From contig NZ_CP036266.1 in NCBI RefSeq assembly GCF_007744075.1, forward strand, positions 4,635,748-4,699,747: DNA of 64,000 nt. Reading direction: 5' to 3'. This stretch comes from Gimesia chilikensis (GTDB lineage: Bacteria > Planctomycetota > Planctomycetia > Planctomycetales > Planctomycetaceae). The notes beneath the pieces were generated by a model, which was given only the letters and a program-made list of their open reading frames with translations, did not search any database and was not told where the DNA came from. A program made the translations under genes and the position numbers. Numbering within the stretch: position 1 is the stretch's first letter; the number at the start of each line of letters is the position of its first letter. Below are positions 25,516 through 29,460 of the stretch, piece after piece.

Positions 25516-27222
25516 TCAGACATTAACGGGTAGTACCGTCGTCGCTTTCAGATAATCGGACTCAAATTCGTCATCTTCGGAGACATGCTGTACCATATGC
25601 TCGGCTTCAGACCACCACGCGGATGCCTGGGCCTGGGTCCAGCTATTGACCTGTAACTGCTCCAGAGCTTCCAGCAGTTCGGCGGAGTTCTGGTAACGAT
25701 CGTCCGGCTTCTTCTCCAGGCATTTCATAATGATCTCTTCCAGTTCAGGAGAGACCTCCGGATTCAGTTCCCGCAACGGTTTCACGGCCTGGCTCGCATG
25801 GGCGAACATCACCTTCAAAGCGTTATCCCCTTCAAAGACCGGTTTCCCGGTCAGCAGGTAATAAGCGCTCGCCCCCAGTGAGTAAATGTCGGACCGCGGT
25901 CCGGGACTGCCATCTCCAGTGACCACTTCAGGACTCGTATACAGCGGAGAGCCCACCACGGCCCCTTCCATGGTTAACTCCAGCGAAACGTCATCGGTAC
26001 GATGATACTTCACCAGACCAAAGTCGAGCAGCTTAGCCACATCGAACAGACCGCCACGCTCGGCTGAGAAAATGTTCCCCGGCTTGATATCGCGGTGAAT
26101 CAGCCCTTTCTGATGTGCTTCCGCCAGGGCAGAACAGACCTGTCTGAGCAGATACACAACCCGCTCCTGGGGCAGAGGTCCAAACCGCTCCACGATTTCC
26201 TGCAGGTTCAGTCCGGGCAGGAATTCCATTGCATAATAGAATGTCCCCTCTTCGGTATGCCCGTAATCGTAAATCTCAATTGTATTCGGGTGCGTCAGGC
26301 CAGCAGTCGCCTGCACTTCGCTTTCAAAACGCAGCAGGACATTTTCATCATCGACCTTGTCCCGCCGGATCAGCTTGATCGCACAGGGACGCTTCAGCAA
26401 CCGATGCTCGGCCAGATAGACTTCGCCCATCCCGCCGCTGCCAATCTGTTTGCGGAGCGTGTACATCCCCACGCTTTTCAAATCGAAGGCTTCGCGCCTC
26501 AAACTGTCAACCCGATGCGAACCATAGACGGCTGTGCTCGCGGCAATCATCAGCAGGATGATTATCTCCGACAAACCGCCGCTATACAGTACTTCTGACA
26601 CCTGGGGCACCTGCATCCCGGTCATGATCGCGCCCACAATCGGGCTGATGACCATCAGGCTCACCACCGAGATCACGCCCTTCAGCGAGTTCGGAATGAA
26701 GATCCCGTAAGTGAAAATCAAGATCACCCAGGGAAATGCGGTTCGCAGGGGAAATTCAAAAGCGACTTTGCCCAGTAATACCGGATCGCAGGCGCAGAGT
26801 TCACTGAAGTGCCACCAGATGAAAAATCCGGCAGGCGCACCGAAGGTGATCGCCTCACAGATCCGCAGGCGGTATTTACAGAGACAGGGCTTCCACCACA
26901 GAAAGGCGGAGACGGAGAAAAGAATCACCGCCAGAACGCCATCCAGCAGCAGCATCTGACTGTCGTGGGGGTTCTTGTACTCACCCAGCCAGAAACCGCG
27001 GATCAGGAATGCAGTTGCCCCCAGGCCTAACAGCAGGGAAGCCATCCGCAGACGCTGGAGCAGCAACGTACGTCCCTGCTCCTGAAACATACTGCCTGAA
27101 CCACGAGAGACGACCCCGGCATGCGGACAGAATTTGCCGGCATCTTTTCTGATCTCCTTGGAAATCAGAGTAGGCATCGATTTTGTGTTTGCAGCAGAAT
27201 GGGGTGTTGGTTTTGAACTCAT
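25516..27222 (-). CDS. Ser/Thr protein kinase with six N-terminal membrane segments
   Basis: A kinase of about 568 residues with unusual order: a polytopic membrane part first, kinase last. After a polar N-terminus there are about six hydrophobic segments, including ASLLLGLGATAFLIRGFW, LLLDGVLAVILFSVSAFLWW, TAFPWVILIFTYGIFI and IIILLMIAASTAVYG. The kinase domain starts near 250 with GSGGMGEVY, CAIKLI, HRDIKPGN (near 375) and LDFGLVKY. Note GN rather than the usual AN after KP; the metal-binding Asn is kept. The start is ATG 27222, with GGGGAA upstream; the frame reaches 27264. The N-terminal part may sense membrane state. It is downstream of the KaiA-like gene after 272 bases. Confidence 0.93.
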   Translation of the reverse strand: MSSKPTPHSAANTKSMPTLISKEIRKDAGKFCPHAGVVSRGSGSMFQEQGRTLLLQRLRMASLLLGLGATAFLIRGFWLGEYKNPHDSQMLLLDGVLAVILFSVSAFLWWKPCLCKYRLRICEAITFGAPAGFFIWWHFSELCACDPVLLGKVAFEFPLRTAFPWVILIFTYGIFIPNSLKGVISVVSLMVISPIVGAIMTGMQVPQVSEVLYSGGLSEIIILLMIAASTAVYGSHRVDSLRREAFDLKSVGMYTLRKQIGSGGMGEVYLAEHRLLKRPCAIKLIRRDKVDDENVLLRFESEVQATAGLTHPNTIEIYDYGHTEEGTFYYAMEFLPGLNLQEIVERFGPLPQERVVYLLRQVCSALAEAHQKGLIHRDIKPGNIFSAERGGLFDVAKLLDFGLVKYHRTDDVSLELTMEGAVVGSPLYTSPEVVTGDGSPGPRSDIYSLGASAYYLLTGKPVFEGDNALKVMFAHASQAVKPLRELNPEVSPELEEIIMKCLEKKPDDRYQNSAELLEALEQLQVNSWTQAQASAWWSEAEHMVQHVSEDDEFESDYLKATTVLPVNV

Positions 27223-27494
27223 CCTCAAAGTTCCCCGGTAGAAACCTGGATTAGACAGGAGCATCGCTGGATACCGTCCGTGAGCGCCTCGTTGTCAGCC
27301 GCAGCGATCTGTGATTCCTGTCTGGTTTTCTTCAGGCTAGTACCGTCTGTTCGATATATCAAATAAACTGAACGTGGAGGGCAGCATATTGACAACTATT
27401 ATAGGTACTCGGAGATACGATTGACAGTAGTTTTTCTCCGGGAAGCTCAAATATGCGTGGGAGGGTATAAGCTGTTACAATCACGTAACTTATA

Positions 27495-28514
27495 CTACTC
27501 AGACAATCTCTTCTGGTAACACTCACCCAGGTGGACCATCATCTCCAGTGCCAGCAGGTCCGCCCGCGACATGACATGCCGTGAACTTCGGTTCCCCAGC
27601 CCCCGGACAATCGTCTCCACACACTCCAGATGGAACTCCAGCACCTGACGCGAGGTCAGTCGGGCTGCCGCCAGCAGTTCCGCGATCTGGATAATCTCGT
27701 CCTTCAGACTCCCGGAGCCCATAATGACATAGGTCCGCAGCAGCTCATGATAGTATTCCGGAATGTCAGCGGGAATCTGCGCATCCGACATCGACTCTTC
27801 GGAAAGACTCTGTTCAGCCGGTGCTTCTCCAGCAGACGGTTCCAGTTCTCCCGGGTAGACCAGTGTCTGCAGTTGTTCGACCATCGAGCGCTGCTGATTC
27901 AACAACCGCTCGGCTTCATCCCGTTCACGGACCAGGCGACGATGATTTTCAACCTGCAGACGATGATGGTCTTCCTGCAGTTGCTGAACCCACAATGCCC
28001 GTTGCACATAATCCAATAATGCGGGTGAGTCCCAGCCGGCGGGGGAAACCAGCAGTTCCGCCTGGAATTCGCAGGCAGCCAGAGACAGTCGATCATCGGG
28101 TACGGATGAAATCAGAACAATCGGTTCATCACAACCACTGACGCGAATCGCCTGCAGCAGTTCGCTGCAGTGATGACGTCCCTCAACGTCGGCCTGAATC
28201 AGCAGACAATCGTAGCTGTGATTGCTCAGCAGTTTGAGCATCTCTTCGGCATTCGAGGCCCACTCCAGACGGGGCTCCTCACAGCCGATGGCATCCAGCC
28301 GTAAAGCAAAGCCCACCCACTCGGGACGCTGGCTGCTTACAAACAGCAGACGAAAGCGGGGCGGAATCACGGAAGCATGATTTTGCTCAGAGGAGGCTTG
28401 AGAGTCATCTGTCGGCGAAAGTCGGTCTGACTGCGGAGACCGGGACTGTCTTTCTGCGAAATCCGCGAAAGCAGCTGCCCCTGTCTGGTTGTGTTCATCA
28501 TCCTGCACGTTCAT
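27495..28514 (-). CDS. KaiA-like protein: pseudo-receiver plus KaiA/RsbU-type helical domain
   Basis: A 339-residue soluble protein. Residues 1-50 are a polar tail. Residues 52-172 look like a response-regulator receiver fold (FRLLFVSS, YDCLLIQADV, PIVLISSVPD, ELLVSPAG), but the acidic pair after strand 1 is Ser-Ser. The phospho-Asp position is Gln107, and the conserved Lys before Pro is Ser157, so it cannot be phosphorylated normally. A coiled coil follows (about 174-218), then an acidic linker. The C-terminus (252-337) reads YYHELLRTYV, then LTSRQVLEFHLECVE and MMVHLGECYQKR. This matches the spacing of the KaiA C-terminal/RsbU N-terminal helical domain as I remember it. It lies 73 bases after pyrK. 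The gene is sure; the KaiA-like assignment is inference from pattern. Confidence 0.75.
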   Translation of the reverse strand: MNVQDDEHNQTGAAAFADFAERQSRSPQSDRLSPTDDSQASSEQNHASVIPPRFRLLFVSSQRPEWVGFALRLDAIGCEEPRLEWASNAEEMLKLLSNHSYDCLLIQADVEGRHHCSELLQAIRVSGCDEPIVLISSVPDDRLSLAACEFQAELLVSPAGWDSPALLDYVQRALWVQQLQEDHHRLQVENHRRLVRERDEAERLLNQQRSMVEQLQTLVYPGELEPSAGEAPAEQSLSEESMSDAQIPADIPEYYHELLRTYVIMGSGSLKDEIIQIAELLAAARLTSRQVLEFHLECVETIVRGLGNRSSRHVMSRADLLALEMMVHLGECYQKRLSE

Positions 28515-28587: not shown

Positions 28588-29460
28588 CTAAAATATCAGC
28601 TGCTCGGCGTTAAACACGGGCCCTTCTACGCAGGTTCGCCGATAGTCCCAGTCGTCGGCACCGACGCGGACTTTCGCCACACAACTGAAACAGGCGCCAA
28701 AGCCACAGGCCATCGGAGTCTCCAGTGACAGCCAGCAGGAAATCCCCGCTTCCCGGGCGAGCTTACTGACCGCTTCCATCATTGGTTCCGGACCACAACA
28801 GAAGATCGTTTCGGGAGGTGCAGCGCTTTCAATCCGCTGCTTGAGCAGTTCGGTGACATAGCCGGCATGTCCAAACGAGCCATCATCGGTAGCTACTTCG
28901 ACTTCCAGCCCATCGAGGCGAAAATCATCCAGCCCTGCCAGGTATGCTTCCGAACGAGCCCCGTAGAGCAGGCTCACCCGTTCGGGAAACGCTTCCAGTT
29001 TCCGCGCTGGTTCACCATACGTACGTTGTCCCAGTGCTTCCCGGGCGGTCGCCAGAAACGGCGTCTGTCCGATCCCTCCCGCCACCATGACCAGCGAACC
29101 GGAACCGGGCTGCGGGAAGCCATTCCCCAGCGGTCCCCAGATTTCGACCTGATCACCGGGTTGCCAGTGCGTCATGCGGGACGTCAGTTTTCCAACCACC
29201 ACATAACCAAAGTCCAGTCCGATCGGCTGTCCCGCTTCGTCCAGGCAGGTATCGTAGAGTGCGAAGGGACGCCCCAGCAGCGGATCGTTCACGCCCGGCT
29301 CGCGGACCATGAAGAACTGGCCCGGCAGAATCACCCGCGCAATTTCGGGACAGTGAATTCGCAGCCGCCAGGTATCCTTTGCCATCTGGACCTGTTCGGT
29401 GACGGTCGCTGCCAAATACTGGGGGGTTGCACAATCGCTGAATGCGTGAGTCTCTGTCAT
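28588..29460 (-). CDS. pyrK: Dihydroorotate dehydrogenase electron-transfer subunit-like protein (PyrK)
   Basis: An FAD and [2Fe-2S] electron-transfer subunit, 290 residues, that passes electrons from dihydroorotate dehydrogenase B to NAD+. Visible are the flavin-binding RPFALYD, the nucleotide-binding GGIGQTPF, and ETPMACGFGACFSC. Cysteines 252, 257, 260 and 277 (C-x4-C-x2-C-x16-C) ligate the iron-sulfur cluster, as in PyrK. No pyrD lies in the window, so the partner is elsewhere. A sulfhydrogenase-type FAD subunit is the alternative, but the cysteine spacing and length favour PyrK. It is 38 bases downstream of the pseudouridine synthase gene and 73 bases upstream of the KaiA-like gene, likely one transcript. 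Confidence 0.88.
   Translation of the reverse strand: MTETHAFSDCATPQYLAATVTEQVQMAKDTWRLRIHCPEIARVILPGQFFMVREPGVNDPLLGRPFALYDTCLDEAGQPIGLDFGYVVVGKLTSRMTHWQPGDQVEIWGPLGNGFPQPGSGSLVMVAGGIGQTPFLATAREALGQRTYGEPARKLEAFPERVSLLYGARSEAYLAGLDDFRLDGLEVEVATDDGSFGHAGYVTELLKQRIESAAPPETIFCCGPEPMMEAVSKLAREAGISCWLSLETPMACGFGACFSCVAKVRVGADDWDYRRTCVEGPVFNAEQLIF

Follow-up and report, generated by a model that had tools for sequence, protein, structure and literature searches.

The open frame at 27495-28514 on the minus strand of the window (the whole 64,000-nucleotide stretch of Gimesia chilikensis DNA that was analysed) encodes a protein of 339 amino acids that we call RK, for receiver-KaiA-type, a working name for the family. 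Its layout, as read from the open reading frame, its translation, its relatives and a predicted structure, is that of a pseudo-receiver followed by a long helix and a KaiA/RsbU-type domain. The AlphaFold2 model, made with an alignment of 28 relatives (mean pLDDT 78.9, pTM 0.52), has a receiver fold at residues 54-165 (28020..28355, minus strand), an unbroken helix at residues 166-219 (27858..28019, minus), possibly a coiled coil or dimer stalk, and four helices at residues 250-338 (27501..27767, minus), while residues 1-46 and 225-243 are of low confidence. A fold search with the whole model listed receivers only, and the C-terminal part was therefore folded and searched separately; folded by itself, it reached a pLDDT of 92.3 and a pTM of 0.83. 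In the single protein, Pfam matched Response_reg at E 0.0072, which is under the cut-off, and no other domain, so that no phosphatase domain was matched in the 339 amino acids. An NCBIfam search of the protein gave no match. An earlier reading made from the letters of the DNA (the sequence-only reading) had placed the frame exactly, leaving the strand unstated, and the residues and motifs that it quoted are present in the translation: Gln107 at the position of the phospho-Asp, Ser157 at that of the conserved Lys and, towards the C-terminus, YYHELL at 254-259, LTSRQVLEFHLE at 286-297 and HLGECYQKR at 328-336.

Between 25516 and 31757, the minus strand of the window carries, in this order, genes for a sigma-70-type factor, a pseudouridine synthase, a PyrK-like reductase, RK and a kinase, and the order from sigma factor to kinase is kept in the four loci of the same genus that were compared (L001, L038-L040). 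The upstream neighbour of RK on the same strand (28588..29460) encodes a FAD/NAD-binding reductase with a DHODB Fe-S domain, as seen by Pfam and by synteny in these four loci. Directly downstream, after a gap of about 230 bases, lies the gene for a membrane Ser/Thr kinase (25516..27264, minus; Pfam Pkinase E 1.1e-45), in which four hydrophobic stretches of 19 residues precede the kinase domain. The Ser/Thr kinase that the sequence-only reading had noted next to RK is confirmed by the Pfam match. At one of the other loci (L040:7376-9162), the kinase sequence beside RK can be read as two open frames that overlap. The idea of a conserved RNA in the space between RK and the gene after it was dropped, since Rfam at gathering scores found no RNA in ten whole loci and in the window between 25000 and 32500.

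Distribution of RK and its neighbouring genes

Of 101 genomes from the taxonomic family of the window, 51 have an RK match, the window's genome among them, and RK is therefore a real gene. The best matches range from 100% to about 31% identity, many of them covering the query only partly, and one of those listed (G049) has an internal stop. At the level of the class, a full RK profile matched 81 of 248 genomes. These comprise 58 genomes from 11 families with an E-value below 1e-20 and 23 with weak matches, of which 22 fall within the receiver or the helix and one (G455) is confined to the C-terminal part. When a profile of the C-terminal domain was run over 294 genomes of the phylum, 12 were matched, all in the window's own class. 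Searches of the open-access literature returned no paper that we recognised as describing the RK family, none that pairs "Gimesia" with "KaiA", and none with three of the terms KaiA, KaiB, Gemmata and Isosphaera. The comparisons below use 66 aligned members, that is, the window and 65 loci, with several genomes sharing one genus and one duplicate locus dropped.

A search with the N-terminal part of the kinase showed it to follow RK immediately, in the same orientation, in nine of the 66 loci, the window included. These belong to four genera (four g1 genomes, G035 of g36, G044 of g44, G051 of g51, where a contig end cuts the gene, and the loci L001 and L003), and the kinases beside RK are 48-89% identical where the kinase domain is present. 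Such an arrangement would fit the idea that RK serves the adjoining membrane kinase, either as its substrate or as a dimeric regulator. However, in 57 of the 66 loci no kinase of this kind adjoins RK, and its N-terminal part is also matched at sites that are not next to RK or in genomes that lack RK (e.g., G050, G013), such that we give this explanation little credence. The kinase as a universal partner of RK was rejected, since it adjoins RK in only four genera.

A gene for a MazG-like pyrophosphohydrolase, identified by Pfam PF12643 (60.5 bits for the gene of L109), follows RK immediately and in the same orientation in 20 of the 66 loci, from 17 genera and 7 families (for example L127-L131, L139 and L140); the window has no such gene. 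The count is made up of 14 loci counted by script, with 13 to 207 bases between the last codon of RK and the match, and of six in which the two touch or overlap, and it leaves out L118, where the gene is 1.1 kb away. It is not directly downstream in the remaining 46 loci, two of which have less than 500 bases of downstream sequence. Among the 13 loci in which a start could be placed, five have the two reading frames overlapping by a single base and two more have longer overlaps of 8 and 26 bases, which suggests that the translation of RK and of the MazG-like gene is coupled. A profile of the MazG-like protein, run over 1.14 Mb (175 loci and the window), matched 32 loci, all of them RK loci, in a body of sequence that is itself largely RK neighbourhood. 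On the other side of RK, a divergently oriented upstream gene, which we take to be LarC, was seen in seven genera (L107, L109, L110, L116, L117, L120, L122, L128, L129); no functional link of this gene to RK was seen.

The pseudo-receiver and the C-terminal domain

The N-terminal fold of RK is that of a receiver. Receivers came up at Z 13.6-15.1 among the 50 best rows in the fold search of the RK model, and a profile search of the PDB matched the entry 3kht at E 1.3e-4. With the phospho-Asp column set from alignments to the receivers 3kht and 3m6m, none of the 66 members has Asp at column 107, and none has Lys at column 157. Asp does occur just after the phospho-Asp column, at the first, second and third position beyond it in 8, 13 and 4 of the 66 members, respectively, and we take these to be loop residues. 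Since both residues are missing across 66 members, the degenerate receiver that had been described from the one sequence is a property of the whole family.

The assignment of the C-terminal domain requires family profiles. A single RK protein as query reached KaiA at E 0.44 to 0.59, Pfam KaiA scored 16.1-16.6 bits on the window's domain and did not reach the curated cut-off of 22.2, and the matches of single RK sequences to KaiA and RsbU are mostly under the Pfam cut-offs. When 18 C-terminal domains were searched, Pfam RsbU_N was matched by 13 and KaiA by 8, with six other families appearing once each. Among 36 diverse domains drawn from the 66 members, RsbU_N and KaiA were each matched by 21 (best 8e-7 and 2.9e-6, respectively) and the next family by three. 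The profile of these 36 members, run against the PDB, had the eight KaiA sequences as its top eight (E 5.3e-5 to 5e-4), with RsbU structures at E 0.4 to 0.8; the four rows in between, namely two designed helical repeats (E 0.02), PurE (0.08) and a lectin (0.4), are taken as chance.

Comparison of profiles by HHalign gave 92.8% for RK against KaiA over 85 columns (best of 150 column shuffles 9.95%) and 94.4% for RK against planctomycete RsbU_N domains over 69 columns (best of 150 column shuffles 1.1%), with small sets of two KaiA and four RsbU_N sequences, while reversed sets gave about 1%. RsbU_N and KaiA compared directly, with the same four and two sequences, gave 1.3%, so that RK, as far as such small sets can tell, bridges the two. 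In structural searches with the C-terminal model, both Foldseek and VIA-align ranked KaiA C-terminal domains first, the best match having a Z of 11.1 over 89 residues of the 94-residue model (rmsd 2.3, 21% identity). The RsbR N-domain (Z 10.0, 9% identity) came next, together with sporulation-inhibitor and globin folds, and others followed at Z 8 to 10. Since the best Foldseek E-value was 0.055 and other helical folds are close behind, structure by itself would not settle the identity of the domain; RsbU structures are missing among the listed rows of the fold search, which is no evidence against RsbU.

Within the family, mean pairwise identity over 66 rows is 52% for the KaiA-type domain, 38% for the helix and 32% for the receiver, and Tyr255 and His295 are invariant in all 66 members. 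His328 of RK, a position that is His in 49 of the 66, aligns with His271 of Synechococcus KaiA. Its equivalent in Thermosynechococcus KaiA, His270, sits in the KaiC-binding cleft. As the best match in sequence and in fold is KaiA, we are very confident that the C-terminal domain belongs to the KaiA/RsbU helical superfamily. Profile search and structure prediction, which the sequence-only reading had named as the way to check its proposal, thus bear out, together with the controls, the combination of a pseudo-receiver with a helical domain of this type.

The likeness to RsbU raises the question whether RK works in a partner switch of the RsbU/RsbT type, with the C-terminal domain binding an RsbT/RsbW-like serine kinase of the GHKL type and thereby linking the pseudo-receiver to an anti-sigma pathway. 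The frequency of RsbU_N matches among RK members and the HHalign value against planctomycete RsbU_N domains are in line with this, and a single HATPase_c_2 gene of the window's genome passes the cut-off (93 bits; RsbW-like, L084), adjoining a gene read by eye as a STAS protein. However, RK has no phosphatase domain that we could see, tblastn, which detects near relatives only, found no relative of the HATPase or of the STAS protein in the 66 RK records, and the RsbU matches cover 56-69 columns as compared to 85-90 for KaiA, though the RsbU_N model itself is shorter. A partner switch of this type is improbable in our view. Four of 294 phylum genomes encode longer proteins, with PAS, GGDEF and histidine-kinase-like parts as judged by eye, that carry an RsbU_N-type domain at their N-terminus (L070-L073).

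Clock genes and a second planctomycete KaiA type

The sequence-only reading had also entertained a KaiC-type regulator and had named a search for kaiC and kaiB homologues as a check. Neither kaiB nor a two-domain kaiC was found in the complete genome from which the window comes. The KaiB model gave no match there, while it detected a planctomycete KaiB at 91 bits as a control, and the KaiA model gave no match over the cut-off. Four proteins were matched by the KaiC model, one of them a single-domain ATPase and the other three reading by eye as RecA, DnaB and a kinase/phosphatase-like protein.

For the family as a whole, KaiC was counted as present if a match exceeded 100 bits, which was the case in 27 genomes (26 with frames of 446 amino acids or more, and G013 with a frame of 195 amino acids). 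Such a match is found in 10 of the 51 genomes with RK, leaving 41 of them without, as compared to 17 of the 50 genomes without RK (Fisher p 0.12), which leans against an association. Where RK and a strong KaiC match occur together, they are on different contigs in nine of the ten genomes, many of these being fragmented assemblies, and 0.95 Mb apart in the tenth (G018). A tblastn search of the 66 RK records (736 kb, window included) found no kaiB, kaiC or single-domain KaiC, while the positive controls were found; 51 of the 65 RK loci have 3 kb or more on each side, and some have much less. A two-domain KaiC as a hidden partner was also considered and rejected, on account of its absence from the window's genome and of the above distribution among genomes with and without RK. 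With no kaiB and no two-domain KaiC found in the genome and no association over 101 genomes, the proposal of a KaiC-type regulator is not supported, and we are confident that RK is independent of canonical KaiC.

A variant of this proposal would have RK act on the single-domain KaiC-family ATPase of the window's genome (L034), in a reduced clock or timer. This ATPase matches Pfam KaiC over its full length at 65.7 bits, and many genomes of the family have, among the matches listed, a similarly weak KaiC match in a frame of about 300 amino acids. However, the KaiC model matches 100 of the 101 genomes as well as all 14 control genomes, RecA-type proteins included; as it is thus near-universal and RK is present in 51 of the 101, the model shows no link to RK. 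Furthermore, some 3.6 Mb separate L034 (L089:6027-6971, G000 near 1061500) from RK, the genes around L034 seem unrelated, it has one ATPase domain in a genome without a KaiB match, and no gene like it was found by tblastn in the 66 RK records. We regard this variant as quite unlikely.

The independence of RK from KaiC is to be seen next to a different group of KaiA-type domains in planctomycetes. In G025 (L074, 2-3433), a protein with a receiver and a KaiA-type domain (E 1.5e-10) is followed by KaiB (the 91-bit control), a two-domain KaiC (392 bits) and a PAS protein. Nine other KaiC loci were likewise scanned with the C-terminal profile of RK, which matched nothing of the kind within about 1.5 kb. 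When the G025 and G455 proteins were made into a two-sequence profile and run over 397 genomes of the class, 109 of these had a single match, which was strong in 17 (E 1.6e-17 or better) and weaker in 92 (3.2e-10 or worse). The 17 strong matches (L146-L162), G025 included, come from three families, and all sit beside clock genes, 12 of them just before kaiB-kaiC and five just before kaiC. Their front ends vary and are receiver-like, PAS or longer, or missing, as judged by family search for two of them and by eye for the others. Of the 92 weaker matches, 13 were checked and proved strong to the RK profile (1e-36 or better), and the rest are taken as RK from their place or length; some genomes with RK, such as G018 and G550, were missed by the two-sequence profile. 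In the window's own genome, the RK gene was the sole match returned at E up to 0.001 (E 1.1e-4).

HHalign gave 98.0% for RK against the 17 kaiBC-linked proteins (best of 150 shuffles 4.1%), and these in turn scored lower than RK against both the two cyanobacterial KaiA (21%) and RsbU_N (25%). In a tree, the two KaiA sequences fall together with the 17 kaiBC-linked proteins (97/100), with RK outside and not forming one clade, but it was built from only 92 columns for 89 rows, its bootstrap was unsettled and its RsbU branches are very long. The KaiA-type gene before kaiB-kaiC or kaiC probably marks a native planctomycete operon of the kaiABC type. In this context, KaiA and a kaiABC operon have been reported, according to an excerpt of PMC8113500, in "Planctomycetaceae bacterium TMED241". 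That in 17 planctomycete genomes it is this other group that precedes the clock genes also speaks against RK as their regulator.

That RK is a degenerate but otherwise ordinary response regulator, its helical tail being unrelated to KaiA and resembling it by a chance similarity between bundles, is hardly credible: helical bundles can reach a Z of 11 from their arrangement alone, and RsbR-type, globin and other folds indeed follow KaiA closely in the fold search with a weak Foldseek E-value, but KaiA is first in the PDB by sequence, most members match RsbU_N and KaiA, shuffled controls fail to reproduce these scores, and the profile made from kaiBC-linked proteins finds RK in return.

Possible role and comparison with known systems

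On balance, we lean towards RK being a KaiC-independent adaptor of the KaiA/RsbU type that controls a partner enzyme. In such a mechanism, RK would be a dimer held together by the long helix and the C-terminal domain, and its pseudo-receiver would sense a ligand or a protein instead of accepting a phosphate. The signal would alter the binding of the partner enzyme by the C-terminal domain and in this way switch the enzyme, which may be likened to the action of KaiA on KaiC and to the binding of RsbT to RsbU. The most likely partner would be the enzyme that is encoded next door. Gene linkage by itself does not prove an interaction, and we list the MazG-like enzyme or the kinase as a candidate for the direct partner of RK while being rather doubtful that either will turn out to be so. 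Tentative as well is the broader notion that the RK family, which is present in at least 11 families of the class, keeps a KaiA-type output domain free of KaiC and KaiB and coupled to a MazG-like nucleotide pyrophosphohydrolase, or in some genera to a Ser/Thr kinase. If this is the case, the KaiA domain would be a general module for the control of enzymes.

Discussion of KaiA mostly centres on its action upon KaiC in the clock. RK, which mostly occurs without a strong KaiC match and is often linked to an enzyme gene, thus offers a testable route to other targets of the KaiA domain and to the origin of KaiA and, as a sequence link between KaiA and RsbU, may tell of the function of the domain prior to its use in the clock. 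Furthermore, two planctomycete groups can now be set apart, namely that with the probable kaiABC operon, in which rhythms can be tested, and that with RK.

Among known systems, KaiA3 (Sll0485 of Synechocystis) resembles RK in having a receiver-type N-terminus and a KaiA-like C-terminal four-helix domain, and it also occurs outside the cyanobacteria. According to an excerpt of PMC11372060, such receiver-KaiA chimeras are found in five non-cyanobacterial genera, so that a KaiA-like protein "outside cyanobacteria", as the sequence-only reading had put it, is in itself not new. As compared by its description in the same excerpt, KaiA3 keeps the phospho-Asp in all species except Pleurocapsa, whereas RK has it in none of the 66 members, and the KaiA3 gene adjoins kaiB3 and usually kaiC3, whereas neither kaiB nor kaiC was found in the 66 RK records. 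RK thus has neither of the two features, a receiver with phospho-Asp and adjoining kaiB3/kaiC3 genes, that characterise KaiA3.

Cyanobacterial KaiA (PDB 1R8J, 1V2Z, 5C5E) has the same order of a pseudo-receiver and a four-helix domain, with 20-21% identity to RK over the latter, and its pseudo-receiver is reported to bind oxidised quinones (excerpt of PMC11372060). It acts on KaiC, however, while most genomes with RK lack a KaiC match over 100 bits, and RK falls short of a KaiA clock protein both in its Pfam KaiA score and in the absence of kaiB and a two-domain kaiC from the window's genome. The kaiBC-linked planctomycete proteins share with RK a homologous C-terminal domain, and several of them also a receiver-like front domain; they differ in their place just before kaiB-kaiC or kaiC and in the variety of their front ends.

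RsbU consists of an N-terminal helical domain with a phosphatase domain after it, whereas RK carries its helical domain at the C-terminus, without any enzyme domain that we could see and hence without the PP2C phosphatase domain that follows in RsbU. Nevertheless, the domain of RK belongs to the same helical superfamily as the N-terminal domain of Bacillus subtilis RsbU (PDB 1W53, 2J6Y), the protein that, according to an excerpt of PMC12143880, starts the stress response upon binding of RsbT.
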